A stretch of DNA of 64,000 bases, from NCBI RefSeq assembly GCF_963576675.1, contig NC_088911.1, positions 135,101,929-135,165,928 of the forward strand. Direction: 5' to 3'. How positions within the stretch are numbered: the first letter of the stretch is position 1; each line of letters starts with the position of its first letter. Under the pieces are notes generated by a model that saw nothing but the letters and a program-made list of their open reading frames with translations, ran no database searches and was not told the origin of the DNA. Positions 9,272-59,287 of this stretch are shown here, piece by piece. The position numbers were made by a program, and so were the translations under genes. This DNA is from Euphorbia lathyris (lineage: Eukaryota > Streptophyta > Magnoliopsida > Malpighiales > Euphorbiaceae).

Positions 9272-10903
9272 TGATAGCTCCTATTTATATAGGGTTTTTA
9301 GGATTAATTTAGATTGTTTTAGTTTAGTCTTTAGTTAATTTAGACGTTAATTTGATAGTTTTTAGTTAAATTATGTATTTTCCTTTATTTATGGCATTTT
9401 CTGTATTTTTAGGGTTTTTCAGGGACCTTTCATGCATTTCCAAACCAGACCCAAGCCTATTGGAGCATTTCCGGATCATTCAGGGACCATCAGAGCACTT
9501 TTGGGATTCGTCAGGGACCATTAGAGCACTTTTCGGAGGCCTAGGGACCTAAACAGATAAAAGCCGGAGCCACAGTTCCTGAAATAGGACCTGTCTCGGC
9601 GAGACATTACCTGTCTCGTCGAGACAGGCCCTCGTCTCGTTGAGACATGCCCTGTCTCGACGAGACGAGGTGGGGAAAGGCGCACCAGCACCTTCCCCCT
9701 TACTGAAATCCGCGGATCTGGGCCAAAAGCCCATTAAATACTTTGTAAATGCCATTTTTACCCCTGAAGCATTAGGGTTTCCTTCCTAATTCTATAAATA
9801 GGGAGCTAAACCTAATGGGGGGATTAGCCATTGAATAAATCGGAGAGCCGCTAGGGCTTTCTCGCCTCCACAATGTAGATTTAGCTTTTATTTCAGTTTT
9901 ATTTTCCTGTTTCTAAATTAGATTTCTTTTCTATTTTCTTATTTCTTTCAAGAACAATTGATGGGAGAAGTTCTTCATCTTCTATTTCTGTAATTGGAAT
10001 CGGCAAAACGGGTTTTGGATTTCTATCTCTTTCCCTTTTATCTTTTGCGATTATATTTAATTGAAGCTTTTTCCATTATTCTTATATGCCTATTGCTATG
10101 ATTAATTTGTCTATGAATTAATCCCCATCCAATTTGGGATGGGGATGAAATTGATTATATGAATATGTACGATTAGGGATCTAGGACCTTTGATTGATCA
10201 GTTTATGCATGCTTAATGCCTGGATATTGTTAGGAACAGGATTTATGCTAGAATGAACATTGATAATGATCAACTAGCCTGTTTATGTATATAATGTGCT
10301 TAATGCCTGTGACCCTGACATTAAATAGGATTATAGATAGATGAGAACCTGACCACGGAATCGTCTATACCGAACTTGTGTAAATCTGACTTCGCTAGAG
10401 ACCACTAGGAATGAGGCTTTGAGGCTGGGCTACGGCTTTAGCCTTAGTTGTCAATAAACCTAATGCTTTGCATGACCTAGGATATATGCCTAATCAAGCC
10501 GTCACCCGAATGCATGTGAATAGGAAGGACAATACTGATCACATTAGTCTTTCACTTAGGACAATTACCTTCAATCATTGGTAAAACGTAAATCTGAACT
10601 CCCTAAACCCATACATAGGATTTAATCAAAGGATTCCTCAGTCTGGATTGTGCCATCCATTGATTCACCTTCTACCCTGTCAATTGTTCACTTTACTTTG
10701 TTATCTTTATTGCTTTCAATTAGTTAATTATTTAGATAAAAACCCAAACATTTATCCAACCCTCTAAACAATTAGATCATTCTAGGTAGATTTACTAGTT
10801 ATAACGAATAGTCTTTGTGGTTCGATCTCGTGCTTAGCACAATATTACTTGTTGCGATAGGATACACTTGTCCTATTAAATGCTATATACTTTACGAGCA
10901 TCA
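9272..10903 (+). repeat. LARD 5' LTR (1.63 kb)
   Basis: Starts TGATAGCTCC and ends GAGCATCA. A palindrome cluster lies at 9593-9666, and TATAAATAGGGAGC follows at 9795. It aligns end to end with 13187-14805, with scattered substitutions and one palindrome more than the partner. Confidence 0.93.
9593..9666. repeat. Array of four GTCTCG-N-CGAGAC palindromes (LARD LTR)
   Basis: 13-bp dyads start at 9593, 9613, 9634 and 9654, a spacing of 20, 21 and 20 bp. Centre bases differ (G, T, T, A) and one arm in the third is altered. The second LTR has three, at 13508, 13529 and 13549 (21 and 20 bp). Confidence 0.9.
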
Positions 10904-11165
10904 AGTTTTTGGCGCCGTTGCCAAGGACTATTTTGTTTATAATTAGATTAAATTTGCCTAGACCAATGTGTTTATAATTAGATTATATTTCAAAATACCC
11001 GACAACAACACCATCAAGTTTTTGGCGTCGTTGCCGGGGACTATTTTGATTATAATTAGATTAAATTTGCTTGGAACTATTTTATTTATAATTAGATTAT
11101 ATTTCGAAATACCCGACAACAACACCATCAAGTGTTGCCAGGGACTATTTCGTTTATAATCTGTG
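10900..11165 (+). repeat. Tandem PBS repeats: about 2.3 copies of a 113-114 bp unit
   Basis: Units start with ATCAAG at 10900, 11013 and 11127. The first contains TGGCGCCGTTGCCAAGGA (10910-10927), at the normal PBS position. The second has TGGCGTCGTTGCCGGGGA, and the third is shortened to GTTGCCAGGGA. The first two units share TATAATTAGATTAAATTTGC and end with CCCGACAACAACACC; the third is cut short after TTATAATC. Confidence 0.88.
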
Positions 11166-13186
11166 TAAATTGAATAGGTTGAAACAATTGTTTAGATTTG
11201 TATATAAAAAAAAATTTGGGTTTTTCGTGTCGTCTTGTCGAGACACCTGGCTGTCTCGACGAGACACATAAAAAAAAAATTTCTCAAAAAAAATTTCCCG
11301 AAAAAAAAAAAAAAAATTCCGTCTCGTCTCGGCGAGACACTGATCATCTCGCCGAGACGGACACAAAAAAAAATATTAAACGTTTTTTTTTCTTTTTCTT
11401 TTCTGTTGCTTTCTTTATTCTTATGTTTGTTTTCTTTTTTTTTCTATTGGCAGAACCGTCTAATCGGAATACTCACCGATGCCGGATTGATTTTCAGGAC
11501 TGCAGCTTGGATTGAAAATTTAGCATCGGAAATTCGGGGTTGGATTGACAAGCCACCCCTGAGGGAGTTTTTCTATCCTATTTCTTTTCTGCACTTTATG
11601 TTTTACTTTTATGTAATGATGGAAGTAAATGCATGTTGTAAGTGTGAGGAGGAGATACTAGGATATGACGATTTTTGATTCTGCCATTTGAATGTTTTTA
11701 ATTTCTTTTTGTTTTTCTATATTAGGTTGCATGTTTTGGTTTTAATTTTAGGATTTCATGCTTTTTGTTTTTGTTTGCTTTTTAATTCTAGGAATAAAAA
11801 GAATCCTAGGCAGTTGAATTTGATACATTTAGCTATCCCGCAATACAGTTGACAATGCGCTTAAAAATTTGCACATTCTAAATGAAATTTATGCATGCGA
11901 AAAATCTTGAACAACGTTTGAGTCTCCAAAGAGTATTATTTGCCTAAAATTGACATGGAACGGAACGTTAGTTGAGGCTAGGATTGATACCAATAACCCT
12001 TAAATTGTGAGTTAGAGCCAGAAAGATCAATATTTTAGACTCATGATTAGGAACAATTGATCTCTTAGGTGTGGGATTACATTTATTGTCTTTGTGCTCA
12101 TAGGAATTGCATCCAATACTGGTTGAATTTTGTGTTTTTTATTAAACTTGAAATGATTAGGCAACCTAGGTATAGCCCTTTGTGAATTTAGCCTATTCTT
12201 TGTTTAGCCAAAATCCCTTAACAATTCCACTAGATAAGCCCCTTTGAGCCTTTTACCCCTTTCTTTGATCAACCATGTTACAAACCTTAGCCTTCTTAAA
12301 TATCCTTTCTCACCCAAGTTAATTGACTCAATTTAGTTTTGATAAATCCTTAGACACACTTATCCTTCAAATTCTCGCTAGCAAGCATTAAAAGGTTGTA
12401 ATTTTAATAGAAGAAGCAACCTTTACCCAATTGAATTTCACTCTTTTTCCCCTCTATTAAAAAAAAAATGGTTAAAAACCAAATCAAAAAAAAATAGAGG
12501 AAAGGATAAAAGACGTGTTTCTATTTTTAGTTGCTTCCCGAATACTTCATTGCCTCATAAATACAACCTTGAGCTTAAACCTTCATATACATAGCGGAAA
12601 CAGTGTCCCTTTTGGATTATGAATTGCTTGAGGACAAGCAAAATTTTAAGTGTGGGGAGGTGGTTTATAGCTCCCTAATGCGAAAAATGTGTCCTTTTTG
12701 CAAAAATTTTAACTATTTGAGTCATTTAACTTTTTGCCTATAAATTCCCTTTTTTTTCCTACCCTAACCCTTAGCCAATGTTACAACCCTTAAAGACCTA
12801 TGATTTTGTTTAATTTTAATGCATTAATTTTGACCGGATGGATGATGCAATCCCAACGTGACCACTTTGTGCAATAACATGTAGAGCGTTTACAAATACA
12901 AAATTTTTACCCAAACACTTGAGCGTTAGAGTGACCACTTGTGAGCTATCAATTTTAGTTCTCTTCTTTCGTTTTCATAAAGTGTTGATTGATAAAACCA
13001 AATTAATCAGTTTTGGAGACTCGTTTGAGGTTCATTATGTTTTTAATTGCAAAATGAGTAGTCTGAATTGTTGTGAATAATAAAGTGCAGTAGATTCTTG
13101 TTTTTGTAAGGGAGCTATTTGTTGATTTTCCTCTGTTTTGAATTCTGTCTTGCTTGGGGACAAGCAAGATTCAAGTGTGGGGAGGT
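11166..13186 (+). other. LARD internal non-coding region
   Basis: Short frames here are broken or low in complexity (A, T and K/F-rich), so I call no gene. Two pairs of palindromes occur at 11232/11253 and 11326/11346. The 3'-terminal signal (GCTTGAGGACAAGCAA, then GTGTGGGGAGG, then ATAGCTCCC) is present twice, at about 12624-12675 and 13150-13195. Only the second adjoins a real LTR. The polypurine tract is GTGTGGGGAGGT at 13175-13186. Confidence 0.7.
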
Positions 13187-14805
13187 TGATAGCTCCCATT
13201 TATATAGGGTTTTTAGGATTAATTTAGATTGTTTTAGTTTAGTCTTTAGTTAATTTAGACGTTAATTTGATAGTTTTTAGTTAAATTATGTATTTTCCTT
13301 TATTTATGGCATTTTCTGTATTTTCAGGGTTTTTCAGGGACCTTTCGTGCATTTCCGAACTAGACCCAAGCCTATTGGAGCATTTCCGGATCATTCAGGG
13401 ACCATCACAGCACTTTTGGGATTCGTTAGGGACCATTAGAGCACTTTTCAGAAGCCCAGGGACCTAAACAGATAAAAGCCGGAGCCACAGTTCCTGAAAT
13501 AGGACCTGTCTCGTCGAGACAGGCCCTCGTCTCGTCGAGACATGCCCTGTCTCGACGAGACGAGGCGGGGAAAGGCGCACCAGCACCTTCCCCCTTACTG
13601 AAATCCGCGGATCTGGGCCAAAAGCTCATTAAATACTTTGTAAATGCCATTTTTACCCCTGAAGCATTAGGGTTTCCTTCCTAATTCTATAAATAGGAAG
13701 CTAAACCTAATCTTTTGAGGGGGGATTAGCCATTGAATAAATCGGAGAGCCGCTAGGGCTTTCTCGCCTCCACAATGTAGATTTAGCTTTTATTTCAGTT
13801 TTATTTTCCTGTTTCTAAATTAGATTTCTTTTCTATTTTCTTATTTCTTTCAAGAACAATTGATGGGAGAAGTTCTTCATCTTCTATTTCTGTAATTGGA
13901 ATCGGCAAAACGGGTTTTGGATTTCTATCTCTTTCCCTTTTATCTTTTGCGATTATATTTAATTAAAGCTTTTTCCATTATTCTTATATGCCTATTGCTA
14001 TGATTAATTTGTCTATGAATTAATCCCCATCCAATTTGGGATGGGGATGAAATTGATTATATGAATATGTATGATTAGGGATCTAGGACCTTTGATTGAT
14101 CAGTTTATGCATGCTTAATGCCTAGATATTGTTAGGAACAAGATTTATGCTAGAATGAACATTGATAATGATCAACTAGCCTGTTTATGTATATAATGTG
14201 CTTAATGCCTGTGACCCTGACATTAAATAGGATTATAGATAGATGAGAACCTGACCACAGAATCGTCTATACCGAACTTGTGTAAATCTGACTTCGCTAG
14301 AGACCACTAGGAATGAGGCTTTGAGGCTGGGCTACGGCTTTAGCCTTAGTTGTCAATAAACCTAATGCTTTGCATGACCTAGGATATATGCCTAATCAAG
14401 CCGTCACCCGAATGCATGTGAATAGGAAGGACAATACTGATCACATTAGTCTTTCACTTAGGACAATTACCTTCAATCATTAGTAAAACGTAAATCTGAA
14501 CTCCCTAAACCCATACATAGGATTTAATCAAAGGATTCCTCAGTCTGGATTGTGCCATCCATTGATTCACCTTCTACCCTGTCAATTGTTCACTTTACTT
14601 TGTTATCTTTATTGCTTTCAATTAGTTAATTATTTAGATAAAAACCCAAACATTTATCCAACCCTCTAAACAATTAGATCATTCTAGGTAGATTTACTAG
14701 TTATAACGAATAGTCTTTGTGGTTCGATCTCGTGCTTAGCACAATATTACTTGTTGCGATAGGATACACTTGTCCTATTAAATGCTATATACTTTACGAG
14801 CATCA
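13187..14805 (+). repeat. LARD 3' LTR (1.62 kb)
   Basis: Partner of 9272-10903, with the same TGATAGCTCC start and GAGCATCA end. It is followed by the TSD GAAGC at 14806-14810, where the Copia-B ORF X resumes. Confidence 0.93.
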
Positions 14806-14810
14806 GAAGC

Positions 14811-17217
14811 TCATGAGCTCTGTGTTGGATACTGGATCAACATCCATCTAGGCTCGATCAATGTTCAGGAGTCTCACTGCCTCACTCAATTGATCAAGAG
14901 TACACTGAGAGGAAGAGGATACTAGGTCACGGGTACTTGTTAGCTCAGCTTGAAGCTTAGTGAAGCATTAGTGGAGTTCGGTGGAGGTGACAAATTCAGT
15001 AGTGCTATATGGACTGGACTTAGTTAACTCAGCAGATAGCTTGGTGAAGCAATCTTGCAACTCAGCAGATGTTGCAGACTCAGTATGGGCAGTTCCTCTG
15101 GAGGGGGTCAGTTCCGCTGCTAGCTTAACAAAATAGTTTTGAAGCTCAGAGGAAGTGACGTACCCTGGATTGGCTTCGGACAGTTGTTGAATTTTTCCTT
15201 CAAGAGAGTTCATATGATGGCCATGGTAAGCACTAAGTCAGTCAGTTTGGCCATTTGCTCTTGGTTTGGTTGCTGAGTTTGGACTGCAGTTATAATACTG
15301 ACCAAATCTTTTAGGCTACGTAGTTCATGTAAAAGCTGAGTGATGCCTGTCAGGTGAGAGGTGTCAGCTTGAGTGGATTGACAACCTTCAGCTTGAGTAG
15401 GATGAAAATCTTGAAGCAAAGACTGAGCTGAAGCAATGACCCGACGGCCAGACTCAGTTGCATTCAAGTATGCAAACTTAGCAGTATTGGACTCAGAGGC
15501 TGGTGCAGGATTTTCTGATGGTGGAGGTGTTGGTTCCTTTCCAGATTGAGTACCTGGACTTTGATGAGTTTGTTGAGCTGAGTTATCAACATTTTGTGTG
15601 GGAGGTGGAGTTGAGGTATGAGTTGGCTCAATTGGAGTAGTTTGACTTGGATCTGCAGGGTTCTTGGCATGTTCCTCATCCTGAGTAACAGAGGCTTGCT
15701 TTTCCGCTAGATCTTCTGGTGGAGATTCAGTTGCATTTGAAAAATACTGGAACTGAATTGTAGAAAGGTCAGTTTCTGGCTCGTCAATGGGAAAGTCGTC
15801 CATGAGATCAAGGTGCTTTTGCGCTTTCTTCTTCAATCTTCGCCGGGTCTCAGTTTTTGGCGAAGAATGGTCAGTTTGAAGACCTTCACTTGCCTCAGCA
15901 GCAACTGTCCCTTCTTTTACAGGTTGCTCAACATTACCATCTTTCCTTGTCTGCTCAGCATCATCATTGGGGTATTCTTCCTCTTCAGTATTAACTTGTT
16001 GGTGCTCAACATGATCCTCATCTTCCTTTTCTTGGTCAATCCCATGACCTTCAGATTGAGTAGAGAGTAGTGGGACAGCTTCTACTATCTTCAAAGAGTT
16101 ACCTCTTTTCTTTTTCTTTAATGGGGTTTCAGGAGTTTCTTCGTTCTCATCCTCAGGCTCTTCTGGCCTCTTTCTTTTCTCAACATGCTCATTAACCTTG
16201 TCAGCTTTAGCTTTCTGTCTTGATGAAAGCCTTATTTTCTTTGGAACAGAATGAATGTCCTTGGAGCAAGCTTCTTCAGCCTTCCTCTTCTTCCCTTTTT
16301 CAGGCTGAACTATCTTAGGTGACTCAGTATGAGCCTCAACTTCTTGTGCAGGCTCAGCTTCAGGTTCCATCTCTGGTTGCTCAGCTTCCTCATCTGCCTC
16401 AGCATCTCCAGCTCCTTCATACCCCTTCAAGGGTTGATTATACAATAGTCCATCTAGTAGGACAGCAGTGATTTCACTTCCCAGCGAGCTCGTCTCATCC
16501 ACGGTCTCTATTTGCTTGTCCTGTATGATTTTCGTAATAAGTGAACCCAAACGTAGTTTCCTACCGCTTCGTTGAAGGGCTCAACTAGAAACACAAGAAG
16601 ATTGAATGGAGTGGAGGTCAACATGTGCCATATAAAGCACTGTTCGAAGTTAGATGCGGAGGAGGCAGAGCTGAGTTTGGGAAAGATGAAGTTAGTCAGC
16701 ATGAAGTGGACCATCTTTTGGTCTTTACCCATACATGTACTGGGTATTTCCCCTTTATGATCTTTGGGTTTACAGAACCCCTTTAGCTTCTCAGATGTGG
16801 CTTTAGGTATCTTCTCCTTTGTCGTTCGAAATTGGATTCCTTCGTTTGGTATCTCTAATAGTGTGGCTAGATAGGTAGGGGTTATAACGATTTTCTGACC
16901 TTTCACAGTGGTCTCCAAATAATCTAAGTCGTCTGCATCAACCCGTAAATTTGAGTAGAACTCTCGAACTAACCTTGGGTAGGCTGTTCCTGGAAGAGAA
17001 AAGAGGCCTTTCCAGTTGTTTTTCTCGATCCATTCACAGAATGGTGCTTCAGACGATACGAAGCTTGGAGAGAACCATCGGCATTTTAACACCTCCAGAT
17101 TGTTAACCTTCGAGTGTACCTTGATCATTATCCTCTCATTTTCCATTGAAGGACTAGCGTGGTCAGTGGGTTTGTCTGTGTTTTGAGCTTCTGGGGTTTT
17201 TTTTTGGTGGGAGACAT
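14811..17217 (-). pseudogene. Copia-B ORF X: plant-transposon-like extra ORF, N-terminal and central parts
   Basis: Likely start ATG at 17217-17215, about 90 bp after a TATA box at 17304-17315. An A9 run just after the ATG shifts the frame; one base fewer would join it to MENERIM at 17146. Residues from the 17146 start: 1-212 hold FSLPGTAYPRLVREFYSNL, CMGKDQKM and NFEQCFIWHML, resembling the putative plant transposon protein domain (Pfam Transposase_32, from memory). A long Glu/Lys-rich part with basic clusters (KKKKR, RRRLKKK) and a Ser/Thr/Pro-rich tail follow. One-base losses near 16575 and near 15225 and stops near 14968 and 14840 break it. The LARD splits it at 14810. It occupies the env position of copia elements but I see no signal peptide or membrane segment, so I do not call it env. 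Function unknown. Confidence 0.75.
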
Positions 17218-17303
17218 TTTTGACGTTTTTTTGAAATTTTTAGAGATGAAGAGGTTTGAGTTCGAGGGATTGCAAGAATGAGGAAAGACGAGTGGGGGTT
17301 CTT

Positions 17304-22780: not shown

Positions 22781-22782
22781 CT

Positions 22783-24200
22783 TGTTGGTCCCTGGTAATT
22801 AGTTCCAAGGGGGGGTTAGGAACTAATATAATTTTTTCGTGTTCTAACTGAGCTGACCAGAAGTTATTTTCAGAGTTTTATTATCTCGGCCTTTGTTCAG
22901 CTTGGTGAGATATATCACATGACAACTTTAGTCAGATGTTGACCAAGGTTGTTTCCTTGAGAGTTAGGAATTGACGCTCTTGGAGGTCAGCTTCTAACTC
23001 AGCACCACTTACTTACTCAGGATCAGCTTAGACAATTTATATGCTGAGTAAATAAAGCAAACAACAAATGCAGTTATAAGAGAGAGTTTAGAGATTACTC
23101 AATATCACTTATCCTGGTTCGGCCTCTCTGCCTACGTCCAGTCCTCAGAGTCCTCCGGGCTTTTTGAATCCAATACTGAGCTCTTTAAAGGTAGAGCACA
23201 AACCAATTACAAGGCAGTTGAATATGCAAGAGTACCCTCCTCTATTCGTCTACTCAACTCCTATTAAGTGCTACAACCCAGCACCTAGATTTCTCTACTA
23301 CTGAAATGCTTACAACCAAGCACTCAGCTTTACACTCTCAATATTTCTATTGATCACAGACTTGTTCCTTCTTGAACTAAAGAACACTTTAGATGATTAC
23401 AACTCAATCTAGCATTTACACATAGAATAACAACGTCGGTGTAAGATTCTTTTTGTATTTGAGTGTTTTTGAAACTTTCTCTCTTGTATTTTTCTTTTTA
23501 TGCTTCAGTTTTCTGTGTGTCGTTTTGGTTCTTCGATTGTCCTTTTATAGACGGAAACCTGTGGACTTGATCGTTTGAAATGTCTTGACCGTTGCCACCA
23601 AAATGGCTCTTTTGGGAAACACTTTCTGGAAATCTTCAGACTGCACCTCCATTCCCTTTCTCTGTTTTCTGTAGGTGTCAGGTTTGTCTTCTAGCGTCTC
23701 TTTTGTTTGTTTGTGTCAGTTATCTTTTACTAATAATCCAACATCCCATGACTCTTGGAATTAGTCTTTTAGGTGTCTTCGAGGTTCCAATTATTGGCGC
23801 AGAAGATTGGCAGCCTTTGTCCTTTAGTGAACGGAACATTCATGTTGTCCTGACTGTTTACTCAGCTTCGTTTGTTCTTTTTGAATGTTCACGGTTCATG
23901 CTGAGTTCCTACAAGGTCAGCTCCATTTTGTTTAACCGCTCCTGAAGAAGTCTTCAGCTTTGGTCAGCTTCGTTTTGTTTCTGAATTTTTAACTCCACTC
24001 AGCTTCTATTCTGTCATGCTGAGTTCCTTTCTACTCATCTTCATTTGTGCTGACTTTTATCCTGTCTTTACTTTATATATTTTTGCACTCAAGATTTAAC
24101 AAACATATTAGTACAATCAAATCAAAGCATCTAAATTTAATTGCCTCTTAATCATGGATGATTTTGTCAAATCAAAATCTTGTGGAAAGGTGTTTCAACA
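22783..24200 (-). repeat. Copia-B 5' LTR
   Basis: Minus strand TGTTGAAACACC at 24200 to GGGACCAACA at 22783, 1,418 bp. TATA box TATAAAAG at 23542-23549 (minus). The TSD AAGTT follows at 24201-24205, where Copia-1 integrase resumes. Confidence 0.95.
23542..23549 (-). promoter_or_regulatory. TATA box of the Copia-B 5' LTR
   Basis: Minus strand CTATAAAAGG inside the 5' LTR. The same motif occurs at 7748-7755 in the 3' LTR. It is the expected start region for the element transcript. Confidence 0.65.
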
Positions 24201-24205
24201 AAGTT

Positions 24206-26411: not shown

Positions 26412-26580
26412 TTGGGCGAGCGCCCAACGTTGGTTGGGCGCTCGCCCAACACCGTTGGGCGATCGCCAAACAATTGTTGGGCGATCGCCCAACAATTGTT
26501 GGGCGATCGCCCAACAATTGTTGGGCGGTAGCCCAACTTAGTGTTGGGCGGCCGCCCAACGACTTTGGGCGACGCCCAAA
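26412..26580. repeat. Array of eight TTGGGCGATCGCCCAA-type palindromes
   Basis: Dyads start at 26412, 26434, 26455, 26477, 26499, 26521, 26544 and 26565: spacing 22, 21, 22, 22, 22, 23 and 21 bp. The centre varies (AG/CG, CT, AT, GTA, GGCC), often keeping symmetry. The 3' LTR has six, starting at 44233, 44255, 44276, 44297, 44318 and 44339. Confidence 0.93.
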
Positions 26581-43480: not shown

Positions 43481-43704
43481 TTACCCATAACCAACGTACG
43501 CTAGATTCCGAGAAAAGAACATCCATCGACGGCCACTCCAAAGGTGACGATGGAAGGAATCAGAGGATGACACCGGAACGCGCAGCGCGAAGGTCAGGTA
43601 TGCTCCCTCCTACTCTTTACGTGTCTTTTACTTTTATATGTTTTACATTGCATGTGTTATGTTAGCAAAAAACGTTTTCGAAACACACACATCACTGTCA
43701 AAAT

Positions 43705-43721
43705 AGGAAAGTAGGGGCAAC
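43705..43721 (+). other. Gypsy-A polypurine tract
   Basis: AGGAAAGTAGGGGCAAC immediately precedes the 3' LTR at 43722, as expected for the plus-strand primer. The 43490-43704 stretch shows no gene. Confidence 0.8.
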
Positions 43722-46700: not shown

Positions 46701-46724
46701 TAGGCCGCGGCACCTCGTCTAACA
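43722..46724 (+). repeat. Gypsy-A 3' LTR (3.0 kb)
   Basis: Partner of 25880-28954 with the same ends. The palindrome array has six units instead of eight (44233-44353), followed by TATATAA at 44374-44380. The TSD CTGAT follows at 46725-46729 and Copia-1 RNase H resumes. Confidence 0.95.
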
Positions 46725-47704: not shown

Positions 47705-49276
47705 ATGTCGGATTCACAAAATCTCTCCGGTGGTGATTACGACAGAAATCACTCCGATGAAAACCCTAAGTCTCCTCCTCAGCAGGAATATAGTGAGACT
47801 CCCACCAAAGGACAAGGTCAGCATGACCAAACTCCAAGTAAAAGCCCTCAAGCTGACCTCGCAACCTCTTCGAAAAAGAAAAAGAAAAAGAAAGACAAGC
47901 AGCCCAAGGAAAAGTTTTTCCTCAAAGTCTACAAAAGTGTTAAGAACCATGAGGTGCTTCGCTGTCGGTGGTTTTTTTCGAGTTTCGTAAGGCTGAGCAA
48001 CCGTTCTGTGAATGGATCTCGAAGAATGAATGGGTTGGACTCTTCTCTCTTCCTGGTAGAGCCTACCCTAGGTTAGTAAGGGAATTCTATTCCAACCTCT
48101 GTGTTGACGAAGAAGATGCTCACCATCTGGTAACCCATGTCAAAGGCCAAAAGATAACAATCACACTATCCTATCTAGCAACCCTTCTAAAACTGCCAGC
48201 CAAAGGGAAAGAATTCAGAACCACAAAGGAGAAACTTGACCACGTCGTAACGTTCTGTAAGCCAGAAGATCACAAAGGGGAAATAGCTAGTACATGCATG
48301 GGTCAGAATCAAAAGATGGCTCACTACCTGCTGACCAACTTTATCTTTCCTAAAATCAACTCAGCATCATCAGCCTCAAACTTCGAGCAGTGCTTCATCT
48401 GGCACATGCTGACCTATCAACCACTCAATATGCCGGTATTTCTTATTAGAGCACTTCAACGAAGTACTGGGAAACTCAGGTTGGGGTCCCTCATTACCAG
48501 AATACTTGAAGATCATCAAATAGACCTGATTAATGAAACAGAGACTTGGGGAACTGAAATCACAACAGCGTTGCTGTTTGGGTTAGTATATAACCAACCC
48601 CTCAAGTCTAAGAAGGGAAAAGAGGCCGTTGAGGAACAGGTGGAAGAAGCTGATGTTGCACAGGAGGTGCAAACCAAGAAAGAAAAGAAAAGGAAAGCAA
48701 CTCTAACATGTTCCAAAGATGTTGATGCTGTTCCTAAGAAACTCAGGATTGTATCAAAGGGGAAGAAAGTTGATGCTGAGCAAACTCAGGACACACCTAA
48801 ATCAGCAGAGAAGCGAAAAAAACAAGATGAGCCTGAAGAAGAAAGTGAGGAAACTCCAGAGCAACCATTGCAGAAAAGGAAAAAGAAATCCTCAGAGTTA
48901 AGTCCTATTGATGCTGCCCCTCTGGGTTTCGTGATCTTTGATGATTCACATTTCGCCAAAAGTCAAGAAATTGATCTTGAAAAAATACATGCTGACCAAG
49001 AGGAAGAAGAGTTGGGCAATCTAGGAGGTTAGTTTGATGCTGAGGAGACAGAAAATGTTGAGCAACATGAGAACGTGGATGTCGAGCCAACAATGGGTGC
49101 TGAGCATGAACAGGAAATCAATACTGAGCTAGTTGAAGAACAAGCTGAGCCCACAGCAAAGGAACATGCTGACCTAGGGGTACATTCACTTTCTGACTCT
49201 CTTGATTCTATTCAAGCTGACCCCTCTCCTCCAAAGGCTAAGAAATTGCGAAGACTTAAGAAAAAGGCTCAGAAGT
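47705..49276 (+). pseudogene. Copia-1 ORF X, N-terminal part
   Basis: From ATG 47705: a Ser/Lys-rich start with a long basic stretch (SSKKKKKKKDKQ), then a one-base deletion near 47990. In the next frame comes the conserved domain (FSLPGRAYPRLVREFYSNL, CMGQNQKM, NFEQCFIWHML), clearly homologous to the Copia-B ORF X. A Lys/Glu-rich, nuclear-signal-like region follows (KKEKKRK, EKRKKQDE, QKRKKKS). TAG at 49030-49032 interrupts it. The Athila-like element splits it at 49277. Downstream of pol on the same strand, so it would be expressed from the element RNA or from its own TATA box. Function unknown. Confidence 0.8.
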
Positions 49277-51109
49277 TGATGCGTGCGCGGACTAGGTAGA
49301 GCTTTTCTATGACGAAATGTATATTACGATAAGTGTGTTACGACTATGGATGTGATCTTTCTAAATGCTCTAACTTTACTAGACGCCACTACTTAGGGGC
49401 AAGTGTACCCCGTCGTATCAAGTAATAATCCGGTTAAGACCGGGTATCGAATCCACGGGATTTATAACTACAAGTATTAGACGACTCGATTTTATACGTT
49501 ATCTAAGAGATGAATACTTTGAGTTGATGCGGGGAACAACTACAAACTACTCCTAACTACGGGTGAGATGAGTTTATATGGAAAAACTCTACGAGATGAT
49601 ATGGATAGCGATAAGTTATAAATATGACGAATAATGACTCCCAATATATAAACGGTTAATGTTTTACTCTTGCAATGACGACTACATGTAGTGTGACCGA
49701 CCCGTGAAGTACTTAGACTACGTGGTTCCTAGTCAAGGCGTGTCTAATGCTTGGGACCAGAAATTAGGGCCCGTAAGTTTCGTGGTTTGTCAATTCCTAC
49801 GGTTTCCGGAGCGTCACTTCCGGTAAGGCAACACCTATATGAATCCCTAAAGATAGCCCGAATGGCGTTGGAAATCGCGTTCTCCTACACAATAATCAAT
49901 TATGAGTATCAAAACAAGTAGCAAACATCAACACAAATATAGAGAAAGAGATTATGAATCATAAATTATAAATATGAAGAGTATAAATGTGAAATACAAC
50001 CAAGCCTAGTACATAGGAAGAGTACAAGCTAATTAGCAAGTGAAAAGGGAAGAATCCACCCTCAGAACTAGCTAACCGGACTCAAGGCTGTCTCTTAGGA
50101 CTTGGAGGTGGAGCTTTCGAGCTTGGTGGACGGAGATGGAACAGAACTTTGATGGAATGCCGGGATCAACGAACAAGCTCTCAAGGTGGGAGAGAATTGC
50201 TTATATAAACTACAATCTCACATTATCTAACAAGAACTAAAAAAATCTAAGATTCAAGATTACAAGATGAAGAAATCAAGAGGTTAAGAGCTGTCTAAAT
50301 GAGTGCTAGTCACTCTTATTTATACACATCAAGCTAGGGCAAAGTTGTAATTTCCTAAGATACAAGCATGGAGGAACATGATTTTATGCAGATTTCCCAT
50401 GATACGCCTCGCGTATGGTGGAGTACGCCCCGCGTAATTGCCCATTCCGTCAGAAATCTCCTGCATGTGGACCAAGTCCAGATCTTGTTGTCTCAATCAC
50501 GCCGCGCGTATACTGGGGTGCGCCTCGCGTGTTTGAGTTTCTGAGATTTTATTGCTTGAATTGGGCCTTTTACGCACCGCGTAGTTGAAGCACGCCTTGC
50601 GTAAATAAGTTTCTGAGCTTTTTGGATTGAAGAACTTCCTTACACGCCCCGCGTGTAAGGTGGTACATCCCGCGTAGGGTAGTTGACTCAGGGAGACCAT
50701 GTAGTCTGACTTTTAGGATTAGGCTTATCATTTCTGACACATGTTCCACGCCTCGCGTGGTGGTTGATACGCCCCGCGTATTGGTTACTAGATTCCACGG
50801 TGGTGCCTGTGGATTGCACAATTATTTCTGACCAAATGTTCCATGCCCCGCGTGAAGGGAGATACGCCCCGCGTATGTCGGTGGAATTTCGCTCCTTGCT
50901 CGTACCTGAAATACAATTCTCGAGAGCCGAGTTAGCTTGACGTTTTTATTTTCATTAATCAAAAATAAGAAAAATTAACCGAAAGTACGGAATTTATTTT
51001 TATTTCGTTATTTTATTAAAACACTCTATTTTTGCAATTAAACTTATTTATTTCATCTAAAACTAAATCGTAAATCACGCTAAAAGATAGGGACGAAACG
51101 CCCCTATCA
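49277..51109 (-). repeat. Athila-like 3' LTR (1.83 kb)
   Basis: Partner of 57474-59287. It contains six pairs of 13-bp palindromes (50403-50875); the partner lacks one half of the last pair (around 59040). Frames at 50497-50821 are repeats read through and not genes. Confidence 0.93.
50403..50875. repeat. Six pairs of TACGC-CCC-GCGTA palindromes in the Athila-like LTR
   Basis: Pairs start at 50403/50424, 50498/50519, 50571/50591, 50643/50664, 50747/50768 and 50842/50863. Distance within a pair is 21 bp in five cases and 20 in one. Pair-to-pair distance is 95, 73, 72, 104 and 95 bp. The outer base pair may be C-G instead of T-A (CACGC..GCGTG). The partner LTR has the matching array from 58600 to about 59050. 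Confidence 0.93.
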
Positions 51110-51121: not shown

Positions 51122-52980
51122 CTTTAAAGTTTTACTTGTCCTCAAGTGAAAGAAATCGAAAGACAAGGGATTGAGATTATTAAGAAACAAACCGTCGGTT
51201 GGTTTTACCAAGTGCATGATTCCGAAGCTAAAGTTTTATACAAAGCTTTCGGTGAGTACCTATGCAAATGAATGAGTGACCAAAACTTGTTTGGAACCTC
51301 CATGATCAAATTTAATAGGCAATATTAACGGGGGTCGAACATATTTTGAGAACCCGATAGTACCTCACCAAGGGATTTCACTCTTACGCTCAAATTTTGG
51401 TGGGTCGGTCTTTTTTGCACACTTCTTTGCACTTACTCGAAGTCACTTTGAGTTTGCATTTTCATCCGGGTTTTTCCTCCTATGTTAAGGTTTAGACAAT
51501 ATTAAAAATGAACCCGGAGGGGGGTTGTAATGTGGGTGGCTTTTTAGTGGTTAATTTTTAAGAACTCGAGTTTAAATACCATTTTGATGATCGCACCGTG
51601 TTTTTATTTTGGTCTTAGTAAGTTCGTAAAATATAACTCGAAATTGCTCAGGTGGAGCTTGAGAATGCCTTTTGCTCTTTATTGTGTTTTTCTTTTCTTT
51701 TTTTTTTTGTTTTGAGAGCGGCACAAAAACGATTTCGAAAGCTTATGGTGCTTACTTGTCAAGGCCTTGGCTTATTTCGGATGCGATTTGATTTTGTTGG
51801 TATTTAAACAAGAGGAAAAAGGGTTAATTGTTAAAAAGGGTATTAACAAGAAAAGTCGGTTAAAAGGCTTGAGGGGGTTTCCTAGAGGTTGATGAAAATG
51901 AGAAAAATAATTTAAGAAAAGAATTAGACTAGGTGGGTTCGTTTTATCATCTATTGCCTATTTTAACCAAAATAAGCATACTTAGCCCGGTATTAGGTAC
52001 AAACTCTATGAGTCGAGTGAAGTCAAAGCTCTCAAAAAGTTGTGAAAGAAATAGAGTTCTCGTACGAACTCTTTTAGGCTCAAAACTACCTCACAAAATT
52101 TCGGATTAATTGTGTACGTTCAAGTTCTCGTCAAATTTTCAACTATCCCGTTTTTATTACCTTTTTGAACTTCATTATGGAGATGACCTGTGGGTTAGGG
52201 CTCAATGCTTTTGTTTAGTACGAACCTAGGCTTTGCATGAATTCTAGAGTTTCAGAATTAAGACTAAAATTTCTTACTAAAACTGATCCCTTATATTAAT
52301 GTCTTTAAATCTAAGGACAAATAACGGAACTTCAATTAATTTCCGAGGGGATAGTGTGTCGGAAAAATTAAAGAATCAATAAATTAGTTTAACTATTTTG
52401 TTGTTTATTTAATTTTTTTTATTTTTATTTTTGTTAGTGCAAAACAAACGGTACGTGCGGGGTTGCACGGCCCTCCACATTATTAAAATGACGCTTATTC
52501 TAAGGGCGTCGCAAAAGAAAAGAAAAACAAAAACAAAAATAAAGATGGAATTTAAAGTAAAAATAGGACCCTTGAAGGTCATGTCCTATGCGAGGCGTGC
52601 CCAGGAGGGCGCCCCGCGTAGGAGGTGCATTTGAGGTGTATTTTGACCAAAGACTCAAATACGCGGGGCGCACTAAGAAGGGCGCCCTGCGTGTTTGAGT
52701 TTCTGAGATTTTTATGCAAGAAAAATGACTAACACGCGGGACGTACTTAGAGGGGCGCCCCGCGTGGTTTGTCAAAATGGTGCCAGAGACCCAACTGCGC
52801 GGGGCGTTTTGGTGTTTACACCCCGTGTAAGGGACTTGGATCATAATGGGATTTTTAATTGAAGAAGAAAGGAAAGAAAACAACCGGATATGATACATAT
52901 ATACAAAGGGTTTGAGGGACGCAAATCGAGGCTACGTTTAGAGTCGGAGTAGCTCGACTTTTTTCCGGATGTGTGCATGC
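51122..52980 (-). other. Athila-like 3' region, non-coding, with four palindrome pairs
   Basis: Between the pol stop and the polypurine tract. No supported frame, although Athila elements often carry a further ORF here. Palindrome pairs start at 52587/52608, 52660/52681, 52733/52754 and 52796/52817, each exactly 21 bp apart, with pair-to-pair steps of 73, 73 and 63 bp. Confidence 0.8.
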
Positions 52981-55900
52981 TTACGGTGTTTGGAGGAATG
53001 TGGCTTCACCGTGTTGTGGAAGAGCGCCTCCGCAGTATATTTTCAGGCGGTGGCCGTTCACCCAGTGAGTTGCGTTGTCGGAACCTTGGATGTCGACCGC
53101 TCCGGACGAGTGGGCATTAATAACAGTGTATGGTCCCGACCACCGACTTTTTAATTTTCCTAGAAACAGGCGGAGGCGAGAATTATATAGGAGGACTTGG
53201 TCCCCCTTGTTGAATTCCCCGATTTGCACGTGCTTGTCATGCCATTTCTTCGTACGTTCCTTGTAAATCTTGGCATTTTTGTACAAACCGAGACGAAGTT
53301 CATCAAGGGTATTGAGTTGGAGGAGACGTTGGTCCCCGGTGGCCTGCACATCAAAATTTAAAAATTTCAGAGCCTAATAGGCCTTATGTTCTAATTCCAC
53401 CGGTAAATGACACGATTTCCTAAAAACTAAACGATAAGGAGACATCTCGATAGGCGTTTTAAACGCCGTGCGGTAGGCCCAAAGAGCGTCGTCGAGCTTT
53501 AGACTCCAGTCTTTCCTAGAGGAACTAACCGTTTTTTCTAAGATATGTTTTAGTTCGCGGTTAGAAACCTCGACTTGCCCGCTAGTTTGCGGATGGTAGG
53601 GTGTGGAGACTCAATGTGCAACCCCATATTTTTGTAAGAGTTGGTCGAATTGGCGATTGCAAAAGTGGGAACCCCCGTCACTAATGATAGCTCGAGGGGT
53701 TCCAAACCGAGTAAAGATGTTTTTCTTTATAAATTTCCCTACCACCTTAGAGTCGTTTGAGGGTAAGGCAACGGCCTTCACCCATTTGGAGACATAGTCA
53801 ACCGCCACAAGAATGTAGGAGTTGTTATGCGACTTAGGGAAAGGCCCCATAAAGTCTATCCCCTAAACATCAAAAAGTTTGCAAACTAGGATCCCTTGTT
53901 GGAGCATTTCATGTTTATGGGAGATGTTCCCGCTCCGTTGACAAGCGTCACATGATTTGACGAAGTCTTGGGAATCCTTGGACAAGGTAGGCCAGTAAAA
54001 ACCACATTGTAGAACCTTTTCCATGGTCCGACTAGGGCCAAAGTGGCCCCCCGGCTCTTGGGTGTGACACATATGCAACACATGATTTACCTCTTCTTCC
54101 GGTATGCACCTACAAATGATATTATCAGCACAAGATTTAAACAAGTAAGGTTCTTCCCAAAAATAGTTCTTAGCGTCGTGAAAGAACTTCCTACGCTGCT
54201 CGTAAGTAAGGTGCGGGGGAAGAATATTACCGGCTTTGAAGTTCGCCATATCGGCGTACCAAGGTAAAGGTGTTACCGCATAGAGAGTTTCGTCGGGAAA
54301 GGTCTCCTTGATCTCCACAACTTCCGAAGATGCGGCTCGCTCGCTTTGTAATCGGGAAAGATGGTCGGCGACGACATACTCCACTCCTTTTTTATCCCTA
54401 ATTTCGATGTCAAATTCTTGTAGGAGTAGAATCCACCGTATCAACCGTGGTTTGGCGTCCTGCTTAGTCATTAGGTACTTTAGAGCTGCGTCGAGGAGTT
54501 TGATTACCTCGGCCTTCACTACCTCTTTCATGTTGGGGTTAAGTCGTCGTTGCGGCTGCACGGAGGGTTTGACTTTGTCCTCCATAAAGATGCGGTGTGT
54601 GCAAATGGTGGGGCTAATTCCTTTAATATCGTGAATGGTCCATCCAAATGCGCCCTTGTGTTTTTGTAACACCGCAACCAATGCTTCCTCCATTTCCGCT
54701 GTCAAAAGTGAAGATATAACAACGGGTAAGAAATTAGGAGGTTGCAAAAACACATATTTTAAATTAGGAGGCAAGGGTTTAAGTTCCAAAGTCGGAGGCT
54801 CTTCGAGAGATGACTTTGATTTTGCTTTGCTATCCCGGTCCAAACCCTCGAACCGGCTCCTTGCCAACAAACATTGTTCAATCTCAGAGGAGTACTCAAA
54901 TGGCTTGTTCAATGGCTCCTCATCCAAATGCTCATTACCATCTATTTCCGAAGAGGTTCCCATTGAAGATCTATCACAAAAATCCTTAACAAAAAGATCA
55001 ATAGAGTCTACGGAATTTAAAAAGTTGCAATCCTCCATGGTATGGGACGGGAATTTCATGGAGTTGTACATGTTAAACTCTACCTCCTCGTCTTGCAACC
55101 GTAGGGTGAGCTTACCTTTGTGGACGTCAATGAGAGTCCTACCCGTTGCAAGAAATGGTCGTCCTAGGAGGATTGGTACCGAATCGTCTTTCGCCATGTC
55201 GAGCACCACAAAATCGGCGGGGAAAATGAACTTGTCCACTTTCACTAAGACATCCTCCACAACTCCCTTTGGCCGGGCAATGGATCTATGGGCCAATTGA
55301 AGCGTTATATTGGTAGGCTTTGGCTCTCCCAAGACGAGCTTCCTAAACACAGACAAAGGCATTAGATTGATACTAGCACCTAAATCACATAAAGCTCTAC
55401 TAAACTCAACATTTCCAATCGTGCATGGGATAGAAAAACTTCCTAAATCCTTGAGTTTAGGTGGGAGTTTATTTATTATAATCGCGGAGCATTCCTCCGT
55501 AAGCGCTACCATTTCGTTGTATTCTAACTTCCTCTTTTTGGCGAGGATTTCCTTAAGAAACTTCGCATAGGTGGGCATTTGTTCTAATGCCTCCGCAAGC
55601 GGAATGTTAATGTGAAGTTTTTTAAAGATTTCCAAAAACTTGCCATATTGATGGTCCAATTTTTCCTTTTTAAGTCGTTGTGGAAAAGGGAGCTTCGGTA
55701 CGTAAGCCCCAATTGGATCACACACATTCTTATTCTTATCCGAGGAAGTCGTAGGTTTCGGATCCGAACCGGGGTTGCTTACCACTTCCGGTTCATCACT
55801 TACCTTTGGAGCGGTTGTAGTCGCCTTTGGAACCGGTGGTTCCAAACCCTTACCACTACGGAGAGTTATTGCTTGTGCGGTCTCCCGGTTCTTTGGTCTC

Positions 55901-57300
55901 GGGTTTTGTTTGGTGTTAATCGGGAGAAACGCATGTCCCAAATCCCTACAAAAAGCTTCATTGTCAACAAGACGGGAAGATATTTCTCGTAGGAGATTAA
56001 TTACCATAGAGTCTTGCGCGTTGCTAGGAGGTTTAAAACTTTATCCTCCTTGGTCATTAGGGGATTGGCCCAAACCTTGCTCCCTAAACTCATTATGGAA
56101 TCCGGAAGGGGGCTTCAACACCTTTTGATTATTGCCATAAGACAAACTCGGGTGTTGGTGTTAAGGCCTCCATCCGCTGTTATTATTATCACGGTGATGG
56201 TAAGCATTCGAGTTATGAAAGGAGTTGTAATTAGAATTATACTTCAGTCTTCCCCCTACATAACTTACGCTCTCGGCATCGATGGGGAAAGGGCTTCCGG
56301 TTTGACAATCCTTACCATAGTGGTCACCATCGCAATGTGAGCACAATAGGGCTTGTGCTGTATTCTGGAGGCTCAATTGTGCCATTAAGGCGTCTAGCTT
56401 TTTACTCATCTCGCTTATGGAGATCTTAGGAGCCTCATCTTCTACGGTAAAAGTTTGATGTCGTGAGGGCCCGGCAAGCCAATCTTCTTGCCATTGGACA
56501 CTTTTCCTAGCTAATTCGTGGATGAGCTCGTAGGCCTCGCTTGTCGATTTTCGAAACAAATCCCCACCTGCGGCAGAATCAACAGTTGCACGATTAGTGG
56601 GAGTTAAACCATGGTAGAAGGTACTTACCAAATCATGCTTAGGAATGTCATGGTGGGGGCAGTTTCGGAGCAACTTCCGAAACCTAGCCCAAGCTGAATA
56701 AAGGGCCTCGTATTCAAGTTGCCTAAAGGACATGATATCGTTTCTCAACTTAACCGTTTTGGAAGGCGGGAAGTAGTACGAAAGGAACTCCTTCTCGAGC
56801 TCCTCCCACGATGTGATCGATCCCGCCTCCAACGAGTGCAACCACTCCAACGCTTGTCCTGTTAAAGAGAAAGGAAATAACTTTAGTTGGATGGCCTCAA
56901 CCGGAACACCATTTTGCCGAGAAGTTTCGGCACACATAAGAAATTTATCAAGGTGTTCGTTAGGGTTTTCATGGGGTTCCCCTCCGAATTGACCAAGTTG
57001 TTGGATTAGTCGGATCATGCTAGTCTTTATTTTGTATGTGTCGGCCGGAATGGTGGGGGCAATGATCCCGTTGCGGTTTTGAGGTCGGTGCGGAGCAAGG
57101 ATCTCCAACATCGAGCGCATGTCATTACCTCCACCATTTCGGTTGTTATTCACGGGTTGCACTGGCGGCCTTTGGTTGACCTCGGGTTGGTTAGCTTCAT
57201 TGTTGAGGTTTGCCATTTTCTCTCTCCGGATCCTACAAAGAGTACGTTCAATTTCGAGATCAATAGGAATGAGAGAATCACTACGAGATCGGGTGTACAT
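52981..57300 (-). pseudogene. Athila-like gag-pol, one frame with in-frame RT/RNase H deletion and five stops
   Basis: 1,440 codons in one frame from ATG 57300. Gag: capsid (GQALEWLHSLEAGSITSWEE) and knuckle CSHCDGDHYGKDC (C-x2-C-x3-H-x4-C). Protease: ALCDLGASINLMP (DLGA active site, Athila style). The RT begins (KAEVIKLLDA) and then jumps within frame at about 54490 to the RNase H end (ALKYLMTKQDAKPRLIRW, VADHLSRL). About 400 residues including the catalytic RT box are missing compared with relatives. Integrase: H2C2 zinc finger (CDACQRSG), then the core D, D and E ([26 protein letters not shown]). Stops at 56161-56163, 56041-56043, 53863-53865, 53611-53613 and 53374-53376; at least four of these are one C-to-T or G-to-A step from sense codons. 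The copy cannot make its own RT. Confidence 0.93.
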
Positions 57301-57449
57301 AAAATAAATAAATGAAATAAATTATAAACAAGAAAGAATATTGTTAGTACAAAGTATATATATATAAAGTGTATATAAACAATTTATACAAAATTAATGC
57401 TTAGACTAACAACAAAACGTTTTTGTCTAATATTGCAAGAAATTATAAA

Positions 57450-57467: not shown

Positions 57468-57473
57468 AAAACT

Positions 57474-59287
57474 TGATGCGCGCGCGGACTAGGTAGAGCT
57501 TTTCTATGACGAAATGTATATTACGATAAGTGCGTTACGACTATTGATGTGATCTTTCTAAATGCTCTAACTCTACTAGACGCCACTACTTAGGGGCAAG
57601 TGTACCCCGTCGTATCAAGTAATAATCCGGTTAAGACCGGGTATCGAATCCACGGGATTTATAACTACAAGTATTAGACGACTCGGTTTTATATGTTATC
57701 TAAGCGATGAATACTTTGAGTTGATGCAGGGAACAACTACAAACTACTCCTAACTACGGGTGAGACGAGTTTATATGGCAAAACTCTACGAGATGATATG
57801 GATAGCGATAAGTTATAAATATGACGAATAATGACTCCCAATATATAAACGGTTAATGTTTTACTCTTGCAATGACGACTACGTGTAGTGTGACCGACCC
57901 GTGAAGTACTTAGACTACGTGGTTCCTAGTCAAGGCGTGTCTAATGCTTGGGACCAGAAATTAGGGCCCGTAAGTTCCGTGGTTTGTCAATTCCTACGGT
58001 TTCTGAAGCGTCACTTTCGGTAAGGCAACACCTATATGAATCCCTAAAGATAGCCCGAATGGCGTCGGAAATCGCGTTCTCCTACACAATAATCAATTAC
58101 GAGTATCAAAACAAGTAGCAAACATCAACACAAATATAGAGAAAGAGATTATGAATCATAAATTATAAATATGAAGAGTATAAATGTGAAATACAACCAA
58201 GCCTAGTACATAGGAAGAGTACAAGCTAATTAGCAAGTGAAAAGGGAAGAATCCACCCTCGGAACTAGCTAACCGGACTCAAGGCCGTCTCTTAGGACTT
58301 GGAGGTGGAGCTTTCGAGCTTGGTGGACGGAGATGGAATGGAACTTTGATGGAATGTCGGGATCAATGAACATGCTCTCAAGGTGGAAGAGAATTGCTTA
58401 TATAAACTACAATCTCACACTATCTAACAAGAACTAAAAAAATCTAAGATTCAAGATTACAAGATGAAGAAATCAAGAGGTTAAGAGCTGTCTAAATGAG
58501 TGCTAGTCACTCTTATTTATACACATCAAGCTAGGGAAAAGTTGTAATTTCCTAAGATACAAGCATGGAGGAACATGATTTTATGCAGATTTCCCATGAT
58601 ACGCCTCGTGTATGGTGGAGTACGCCCCGCGTAATTGCCCATTCCATCAGAAATCTTCTGCATGTGGACCAAGTCCAGATCTTGTTGTCTCAATCACGCC
58701 GCGCGTATACTGGGGTGCGCCTCGCGTGTTTGAGTTTCTGAGATTTTATTGCTTGAATTGGGCCTTTTACGCACCGCGTAGTTGAAGCACGCCTTGCGTA
58801 AATAAGTTTCTGAGCTTTTTGGATTGAAGAACTTCCTTACACGCCCCGCGTGTAAGGTGGTACGTCCCGCGTAGGGTAGTTGACTCAGGGAGACCATGCA
58901 GTCTGACTTTCAGGATTAGGCTTATCATTTCTGACACATGTTCCACGCCTCGCGTGGTGGTTGATACGCCCCGCTTATTGGTGACTAGATTCCACGTGGT
59001 GCCTGTGGATTGCACAATTATTTCTGACCAAATGTTCCACGCCCCGCGTATGTCGGTGGAATTTCGCTCCTTGCTCGTACCTGAAATACAATTCTCGAGA
59101 GCCGAGTTAGCTTGACGTTTTTATTTTCTAAATTAATCAAAAATAAGAAAAATTAACCGAAAGTATGGAATTTATTTTTATTTCGTTATTTTATTAAAAC
59201 ACTCTATTTTTGCAATTAAACTTATTTATTTCATCTAAAACTAAACCGTAAATCACGCTAAAAGATAGGGACGAAACGCCCCTATCA
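57474..59287 (-). repeat. Athila-like 5' LTR (1.81 kb)
   Basis: Partner of 49277-51109, same ends. A short deletion near 59040 has removed one palindrome and the 8-bp linker of the last pair. The TSD GAAGT follows at 59288-59292. Confidence 0.94.

Follow-up and report, generated by a model that had tools for sequence, protein, structure and literature searches.

Foamy viruses drive both an LTR (long terminal repeat) promoter and an internal promoter with the same protein, Tas, although as animal retroviruses they serve as an analogy only. U3 activators of the Tnt1 box I type are partly palindromic, occur in few copies in copia elements and are not known to form phased arrays. The closest described anatomy is that of the palindromic repeated motifs (RMs) of the Ty1/copia Sireviruses, presented in a paper that also names Tnt1 box I (Bousios 2010, PMC2829016): as far as the accessible part of that account goes, RMs are CpG-rich palindromic boxes in high copy, occupying the LTR's upper half a short distance upstream of TATA, their sequence varies between element families, most have a CGG-CCG core (which Tnd-1 lacks), and additional ones precede the env-like gene, where in the authors' view they support the presence of an internal promoter for env. 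Here, we analyzed a 64,000-nucleotide stretch of the Euphorbia lathyris genome (NC_088911.1, 135,101,929–135,165,928; the window) holding a nest of retrotransposons, and confirmed that three of its Ty3/gypsy elements, termed LARD, Gypsy-A and Athila-like, carry arrays of GC-rich dyads in U3. This kind of array is already known from Sireviruses; what looks new is how strictly the dyads are spaced and that a second row occurs at an internal promoter.

The initial annotation of the window knew of no named system that would explain such arrays, a claim that does not hold, as the Sirevirus RMs have the same anatomy. The arrays described here are likewise palindromic high-copy LTR boxes upstream of TATA, with the limit that LARD has only 3–4 dyads per LTR. 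They differ in that their arms are without the CGG-CCG core (some GC centers create one) and in that Gypsy-A and the Athila-like element are of Ty3/gypsy type, whereas RMs belong to Ty1/copia and the 2010 comparison set was copia. The spacing rule, the pairing and the arm-covariation test are described here and not in the RM account as accessible to us (PMC2829016). Since Sirevirus arrays occur in copia, the contrast between copia and gypsy elements is local to this nest. Clusters of palindromes in maize Sireviruses also occupy the LTR cis region and were proposed to act by secondary structure (Bousios 2016, as reported in the accessible text of PMC10760457), whereas the core arm changes here are uncompensated. 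For VANDAL elements of Arabidopsis, the element-encoded VANC protein binds a repeated motif; these are DNA transposons, and the word stem "palindrom" does not occur in the accessible text (PMC5735166). Athila6A of Arabidopsis, from the same lineage as our Athila-like element, has an LTR promoter and a defined internal promoter before its env-position open reading frame (ORF), and the accessible part of the description contains no palindrome array (PMC4977677). In the open-access literature searched, we did not find the gypsy lineage, pairing, phasing or two-promoter use of such arrays.

The exact motifs were recovered at the places given by the initial annotation, with GTCTCG-N-CGAGAC (LARD) present eight times, TTGGGCG-center-CGCCCAA (Gypsy-A) 11 times and TACGC-N3-GCGTA (Athila-like) seven times, all inside the LTR pairs apart from two perfect LARD dyads at 11253 and 11326, which lie in the leader. 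Genome-wide, covering 1.02 Gb in 33 contigs, the Gypsy-A pattern TTGGGCGNNCGCCCAA occurs 21,082 times compared with once for the pattern read backwards, and the Athila pattern TACGCNNNGCGTA 29,947 times compared with 112. Counting GC-rich dyads per LTR against 300 block-wise dinucleotide shuffles yielded 6 and 5 dyads for the LARD LTRs (1.5 and 1.4 expected), 12 and 17 for Gypsy-A (6.0 and 6.0) and 9 and 6 for Athila (2.1 and 2.0), with P values across the six gypsy LTRs from 0/300 to 0.02. None was counted in any of the four copia LTRs of the nest (0, 0, 0 and 0). In dyad number, the gypsy LTRs of this nest thus exceed shuffled sequence, and the statement of the initial annotation that the copia LTRs are devoid of dyads is borne out. 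Repeated dyads of any composition were likewise absent from two copia LTRs and from the spacers that precede the Transposase_32 ORF in the copia elements.

Extending the search to 20 regularly spaced 10-kb pieces from two contigs, we obtained eight dyad clusters in the window and these pieces together (five in the window) compared with none in three shuffles each, under a cluster rule that missed the Athila array and with not all eight clusters being LTR arrays (one is a 39-bp tandem repeat of the window, one lies in L023). Gypsy-A-type arrays were present in two of the 20 pieces, an Athila-type array in one and a LARD-type dyad in none. Other repeated dyads were observed in L012 (2558–2695; CGACAA-N3-TTGTCG, steps of 30–31 bp) and L025 (6463–6575; CGTTAT-N3-ATAACG, steps of 45–53 bp), which by eye look like fold-back or DNA-transposon repeats.

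The Athila dyads are arranged in pairs. In the 3′ LTR of the window the gaps read, in element orientation, 95, 21, 83, 21, 52, 20, 52, 21, 74 and 21 bp, and the distance of 85 bp to TATA is identical in both LTRs. For a set of 18 Athila arrays (193 dyads), the 172 gaps below 130 bp comprise 87 of 19–21 bp, 31 of 52–53 bp, 35 of 72–74 bp and 15 of 83–84 bp, plus single gaps of 60, 94, 95 and 122 bp; three gaps exceeding 130 bp were excluded. Most of these lengths fall close to a multiple of 10.4 bp, 60 and 122 bp being exceptions, and the gaps of 72–74 bp may hide a decayed dyad (52 + 21). The steps of 20–23 bp initially proposed for this family therefore hold within pairs, as 19–21 bp, but not as an even spacing, most pairs being separated by 52–84 bp. 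We compared 34 blocks with at least three pair starts with random gaps, a set widened from 11 chosen arrays, now including ten more loci and two internal arrays, and in which L059 and L063int are one locus parsed twice. In 26 of the 34 blocks a period within 10.2–10.8 bp fitted better than random gaps (P 0.0007–0.039), with best-fit periods of 10.36–10.48 bp; as the arrays are related, these blocks represent few observations made many times over rather than independent ones.

Aligning 16 of the 18 arrays gave conservation values of 0.959 for half-sites, 0.852 for linkers and 0.876 for flanks, and an identical dyad is retained across very diverged arrays. Some insertions and deletions (indels) in these arrays are unit-sized, of 20–21 or ~73 bp; in most pairs of LTR arrays indels per substitution are fewer within the array, a trend weaker than for the internal array described below and including some unit-sized deletions. 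A CAGARACTC remnant in L047 and L059 weakens the view that L060 has linkers of a different origin from those in L047, L053 and L059, indicating that the Athila geometry was retained rather than reached by convergence.

A second, degenerate row between pol and the 3′ LTR of the Athila-like element (52587–52829) had escaped the initial annotation. Its gaps of 21, 42, 21, 52, 21, 52 and 21 bp are phased at 10.44 bp (P 0.003), and two other Athila arrays (L053/L061 and L059/L063) also sit inside the element at this place. L061, L064, L068 and L073 each contain two internal arrays, separated by 354, 343, 333 and 344 bp, respectively, so that the separations step by nearly one helical turn despite many spacer indels, in cases too few to judge. 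The second of the two arrays is regular; the first has a step of 78–81 bp. Following the second array, L061, L064 and L068 show in order a small palindrome (GGGAATCC...GGATTCCC), a TATA box and an ATG, and in L073 the palindrome and TATA were recognized by eye. In L064 and L068 the frame that this ATG opens continues without a stop as far as the piece extends (58 and 59 codons), whereas in L061 stops interrupt it, but it shares its frame with an extra ORF (2240–3247) that matches ATHILA ORF-1 (E 1.1e-7; Transposase_32 below cut-off). Perhaps one extra-ORF family is common to copia and gypsy elements. Dyad centers within the internal pairs are mostly opposite (GNG, CNC) and within LTR-array pairs mostly alike, suggesting that center orientation does not matter. 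Between four copies, forming six pairs that share sequences and with all array indels involving L068, substitutions amount to 14.0% in the second internal array and 14.2% in the neighboring spacer, while indels per substitution are six-fold lower in the array (0.040 versus 0.240); downstream of it we found 18.9% substitutions and 0.21 indels per substitution.

Gypsy-A shows a different layout. We parsed 24 arrays, two from the window, two from sampled pieces and the first 20 genome matches listed (exact dyads), at a threshold of 11/14 matches. Their 234 dyads have centers of 2 (164), 1 (44), 4 (25) or 0 (1) bases, never 3; in the 5′ LTR array of the window they are mostly 2, and 1 in the last dyad. 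The step ranges from 19.5 to 24 bp with a mean of 21.75 bp (200 close neighbor pairs; 10 wider gaps excluded), so that the regular row initially reported is retained with a range other than the proposed 20–23 bp. A TATA box is recognizable in 22 arrays and not in two, and the last dyad center lies 25.5–27.5 bp upstream of it in 21 of the 22 (45 bp in one), a distance that stays fixed although the number of dyads per array varies from 5 to 14. Variation is 0.04–0.63 bits in the core G3–G7, part of this conservation being due to the match threshold of the parse, 0.42–0.93 bits at T1 and T2, 1.77–1.94 bits in two-base centers and 1.80–1.99 bits in flanks at least two bases out. Of the constant geometry initially claimed, the rows of dyads hold for each family; across families it does not hold, with Athila phased near 10.4 bp and Gypsy-A mostly not.

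The Gypsy-A TATA box lies inside a palindrome (26586–26619 and other copies), which in some reads GGATCCGTGCC-TATAAAA-GGCACGGATCC; by eye, an upstream GGGG and a downstream CCCC tend to change together, with exceptions. In several copies, the last two dyads (e.g. 44316–44355) form one nested palindrome with arms of 17–18 bp, whose outer flanks are CAA/TTG, CTT/AAG or GTT/AAC depending on the copy, some being mixed. For LARD, the TATA distance is 133 bp in both LTRs. Its U3 dyads are as initially annotated, and two leader pairs at 11232–11358 had been missed; there, 73 bp lie between 11253 and 11326, and 11232 and 11346 have one mismatch each.

Together, these data make it probable that the arrays are promoter-proximal cis-regulatory modules, composed of sites for dimeric proteins and controlling transcription of the elements. 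The sequence shows the presence and position of the arrays, independent half-site conservation, a spacing constraint and duplication at two promoters. From the two-promoter position, the fixed half-sites, the free centers and the partly helical spacing we infer binding by a dimeric protein, and with it a transcriptional action and its direction. Element-specific dimer recognition, one of the explanations put forward by the initial annotation, is thus the best reading of fixed half-sites, variable centers and linkers, constrained spacing and promoter position. The dyad rows would be sites for dimeric, sequence-specific DNA-binding proteins, and the bound dimers would control transcription. The Athila sites, paired two helical turns apart, would lie roughly on one helix face over ~460 bp, so that bound dimers could touch each other, and a similar module would be repeated at the internal promoter ahead of the extra ORF; the dense Gypsy-A row would be anchored to the TATA box instead of being phased. 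To our knowledge, none of the plant factor sites of ARF, NAC, CAMTA, E2F and TCP fits the dyads well. In the arm-covariation tests, matched changes were found in 0/66 deviant dyad positions of the Gypsy-A core (G3–G7) and in 0/49 of the Athila core (A2–C5), and a G7 to T variant recurs uncompensated in 17 Gypsy-A right arms. The T/C variants at T2 of Gypsy-A pair five times compared with 4.9 in a within-array permutation, and those at T1 of Athila nine times compared with 9.0. The uncompensated core changes and the six-fold lower indel rate of one array favor protein dimers over hairpins or neutral repeats.

Several observations weigh against this interpretation. Many core deviants may represent post-insertion decay, uncompensated under any model; as such decay also yields unmatched core changes, the common T/C variants carry more weight. 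In Gypsy-A dyads, the two arms are alike at position −2 in 97 cases compared with 71.1 expected and at −1 in 164 compared with 139.6; the outer arms of neighboring dyads deviate alike at −1 (16 versus 4.4) and T1 (8 versus 1.1); and Athila flanks exceed the permutation at −6 to −3 in the full set and at −6 and −4 in the reduced set. Recognition of the core alone by a protein does not explain the outer-flank pairing of the last two Gypsy-A dyads. With regard to spacing, eight of the 34 Athila blocks miss P 0.05, some for too few pairs, in-phase indels are also expected from recombination between dyads, and the first internal Athila array is out of phase (R at 10.43 bp of 0.77 in L053, 0.66 in L064, 0.10 in L068 and 0.34 in L073). 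Phasing at 10.45 bp is absent from 19 of 21 Gypsy-A arrays with at least seven dyads (R 0.17–0.54), two reaching R 0.89, and the best-fit period is 10.8–11.2 bp in 19 of the 21. Center and linker lengths in Gypsy-A do not compensate each other (r = +0.19), and helical selection by such compensation was rejected. At the internal array, TATA-like sequence precedes it in L061, L063 and the window, and in L063 no TATA was found downstream. While an env-position ORF with an array upstream is present in L061, L064 and L068, none of the 16 best-scoring PF03078 ORFs (of 92 scored, from 6,428 first-look candidates; L078 and L080 look alike) has an array within 1 kb upstream, and an array upstream of PF03078 ORFs as a general rule was rejected. 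L063 and the window copy contain the internal array but no such extra ORF, which, with the upstream TATA-like sequence and the PF03078 result, limits the link between array and ORF to one subfamily.

Among the alternatives, action through structure rather than protein, as RNA hairpins or DNA cruciforms in element RNA or feeding small-RNA silencing, survives best but is unlikely. It has a precedent in the maize Sirevirus palindrome clusters, linked to predicted structure and small RNAs in the accessible account (Bousios 2016 via PMC10760457), and several Gypsy-A features suit it: pairing of half-sites could also take place across linkers, in several copies the two dyads nearest TATA nest with 17–18 bp arms and co-varying outer flanks, the TATA box lies within a palindrome and some flank positions co-vary within dyads. 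The cores, however, show no compensation in either family, including the 17 right arms with G7 to T, and pairing between outer T/C variants is no more frequent than in the permutation; with stems of only 5 bp and loops of 3 bases, Athila hairpins would be weak, and hairpins do not require 10.4-bp phasing between dyads.

A more specific version of the protein interpretation, in which a regulator encoded by the element reads the dyads as its recognition code in an autoregulatory loop of activation or anti-silencing, is unlikely. The binder would plausibly be the extra ORF of ATHILA ORF-1/Transposase_32 type; by analogy with foamy virus Tas or VANC, but in plant gypsy elements, it would bind phased paired sites both at the LTR promoter and at the one that drives its own ORF, and LARDs, being non-autonomous, would retain the sites so as to use a partner's protein. 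Both the absence of arrays upstream of the 16 best PF03078 ORFs and the copia elements of this nest, where Transposase_32 ORFs are present and LTR arrays absent, speak against it.

We consider it quite improbable that the arrays are a neutral by-product, a palindromic unit multiplied by slippage or unequal exchange with spacing and conservation as leftovers of duplication. The dyad-sized Athila indels (20–21 or ~73 bp), the CAGARACTC remnant in L047, L059 and L060, pointing to common descent from an old unit, and the 73-bp pair step recurring in many blocks are as expected from such a process. Homogenization, however, would keep linkers and centers alike, whereas those of Gypsy-A are near maximal variation, and distant Athila linkers are of near-chance similarity while half-sites and gap lengths persist; the six-fold fewer indels per substitution inside one array and the fixed TATA position are also contrary to it. 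The weakest alternative, very improbable, is CpG chemistry, with the arrays offering dense CpG to proteins that read methylation or to factors that avoid it and with palindromy incidental, since, despite observed/expected ratios of 1.17–1.22 in the three arrays compared with 0.80 in the window and CpG islands near this place in Sirevirus and Del LTRs (accessible parts of PMC2829016 and PMC4029996), such density needs no palindromes, fixed half-site or helical spacing and the ratio of the whole Gypsy-A LTR (1.57) exceeds that of its array (1.21).

The window contains nested insertions of two copia elements, LARD, Gypsy-A and the Athila-like element, the last on the minus strand (Table 1). LARD, Gypsy-A and the Athila-like element are flanked on both sides by 5-bp target-site repeats. 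The primer site TTTTTGGCGCCGTTG, given as TTTTTGGCGCCGTTGCC for the LARD 5′ LTR in Table 1, is common to LARD and the Athila-like element, and we take it to be Athila-type. Ty3/gypsy-type domains were identified in Gypsy-A and the Athila-like element; LARD is without an ORF, and no ORF of at least 200 aa is listed in the 3′ internal part of the window Athila copy or in LARD. The Gypsy-A gag-pol contains RT_RNaseH (residues 1204–1306) and RVT_3 (residues 1358–1475), the latter presumably the additional RNase H domain (aRH) of the Tat clade. An aRH in pol is given as characteristic of this clade in the accessible part of PMC6317226, and Gypsy-A has the corresponding two RNase H-type regions. A G-patch (residues 649–685, E 1.8e-5) lies between gag and reverse transcriptase. 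The Retand subclade is characterized by a TRP28 ORF that lies antisense in the region from pol to the 3′ LTR (accessible part of PMC11963269); none of 17 antisense Gypsy-A ORFs (at least 60 aa, overlapping 39500–43800) matched TRP28, which was thereby rejected as a DNA-binding candidate for this element. Antisense in the same region, 41450–41647 (−) weakly matches a plant mobile domain, below cut-off (E 0.0044), and is possibly a remnant of an extra ORF. The extra ORF of Gypsy-A upstream of gag-pol has a gag domain (E 2.9e-7) and is 94% identical to a Euphorbia lathyris protein over 81% of its length; four relatives were found among the candidates scored, three of them from Euphorbia lathyris. 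Both copia elements have a Transposase_32 ORF after pol, at 16508–17239 (−) and 47953–49032 (+). The 39-bp tandem repeat (42725–43484) precedes the Gypsy-A 3′ LTR and has open frames on both strands; in several of its units there is a CGGTC-N3-GACCG or AGGTC-N3-GACCT dyad similar to the Sirevirus motifs of the form CGGTC-GACCG.

Table 1 Coordinates of the elements, dyad arrays, TATA boxes and coding regions in the window
Feature	Position	Strand	Details
First copia element, LTRs	5854–6581 / 61218–61946		self-comparison
Second copia element, LTRs	6984–8408 / 22782–24202		self-comparison
LARD 5′ LTR	9272–10903	+	TG...CA ends; target-site repeat GAAGC; primer site TTTTTGGCGCCGTTGCC follows
LARD U3 array	9593–9666		dyads 9593, 9613, 9634 (one mismatch), 9654; steps 20, 21, 20
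TATA-like box, LARD 5′ LTR	9793–9798	+	133 bp from last dyad center
LARD leader array	11232–11358		two dyad pairs, (11232, 11253) and (11326, 11346)
LARD 3′ LTR	13187–14805	+	self-comparison
LARD 3′ LTR array	13508–13561		three dyads, steps 21, 20; TATA at 13688
Gypsy-A (Tat-like) 5′ LTR	25880–28954	+	target-site repeat CTGAT; primer site TGGCGACTCTGCTGGGG
Gypsy-A 5′ LTR array	26369–26579		10 dyads by relaxed parse; half-site (G)TTGGGCG
Gypsy-A CTATATAA box	26599–26606	+	26.5 bp from last dyad center; inside palindrome GGATCCGT...ACGGATCC
Gypsy-A extra ORF	30879–32561	+	560 aa, 5′ of gag-pol, weak gag domain
Gypsy-A gag-pol	33855–39638	+	1927 aa, two RNase H-type regions, G-patch
Gypsy-A 3′ LTR	43722–46724	+	self-comparison
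Gypsy-A 3′ LTR array	44211–44353		7 dyads by relaxed parse
Athila-like 3′ LTR	49277–51109	−	minus-strand element; target-site repeat GAAGT
TATAAA box, Athila 3′ LTR	50319–50324	−	85 bp from last dyad center
Athila U3 array, 3′ LTR	50403–50875		11 dyads by relaxed match, in pairs
Second Athila array, degenerate	52587–52829		between pol and 3′ LTR; 8 dyads, 1–3 mismatches
Athila pol part	53863–56040	−	weak protease match, integrase zinc-binding
Athila gag	56161–57321	−	
Athila-like 5′ LTR	57474–59287	−	self-comparison
Athila 5′ LTR array	~58600 to 59051		TATA at 58521

If the arrays are binding modules, near-identical sites, many in phase, would number in the tens of thousands within one plant genome, and one pull-down could be enough to name the binding factor. 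Naming it would show how large clades of plant retrotransposons switch on their promoters, and whether the arrays represent a solution shared by Sireviruses (copia) and Athila/Tat elements (gypsy) or two separate ones. The function and expression of the plant env-position ORF would likewise become directly testable.

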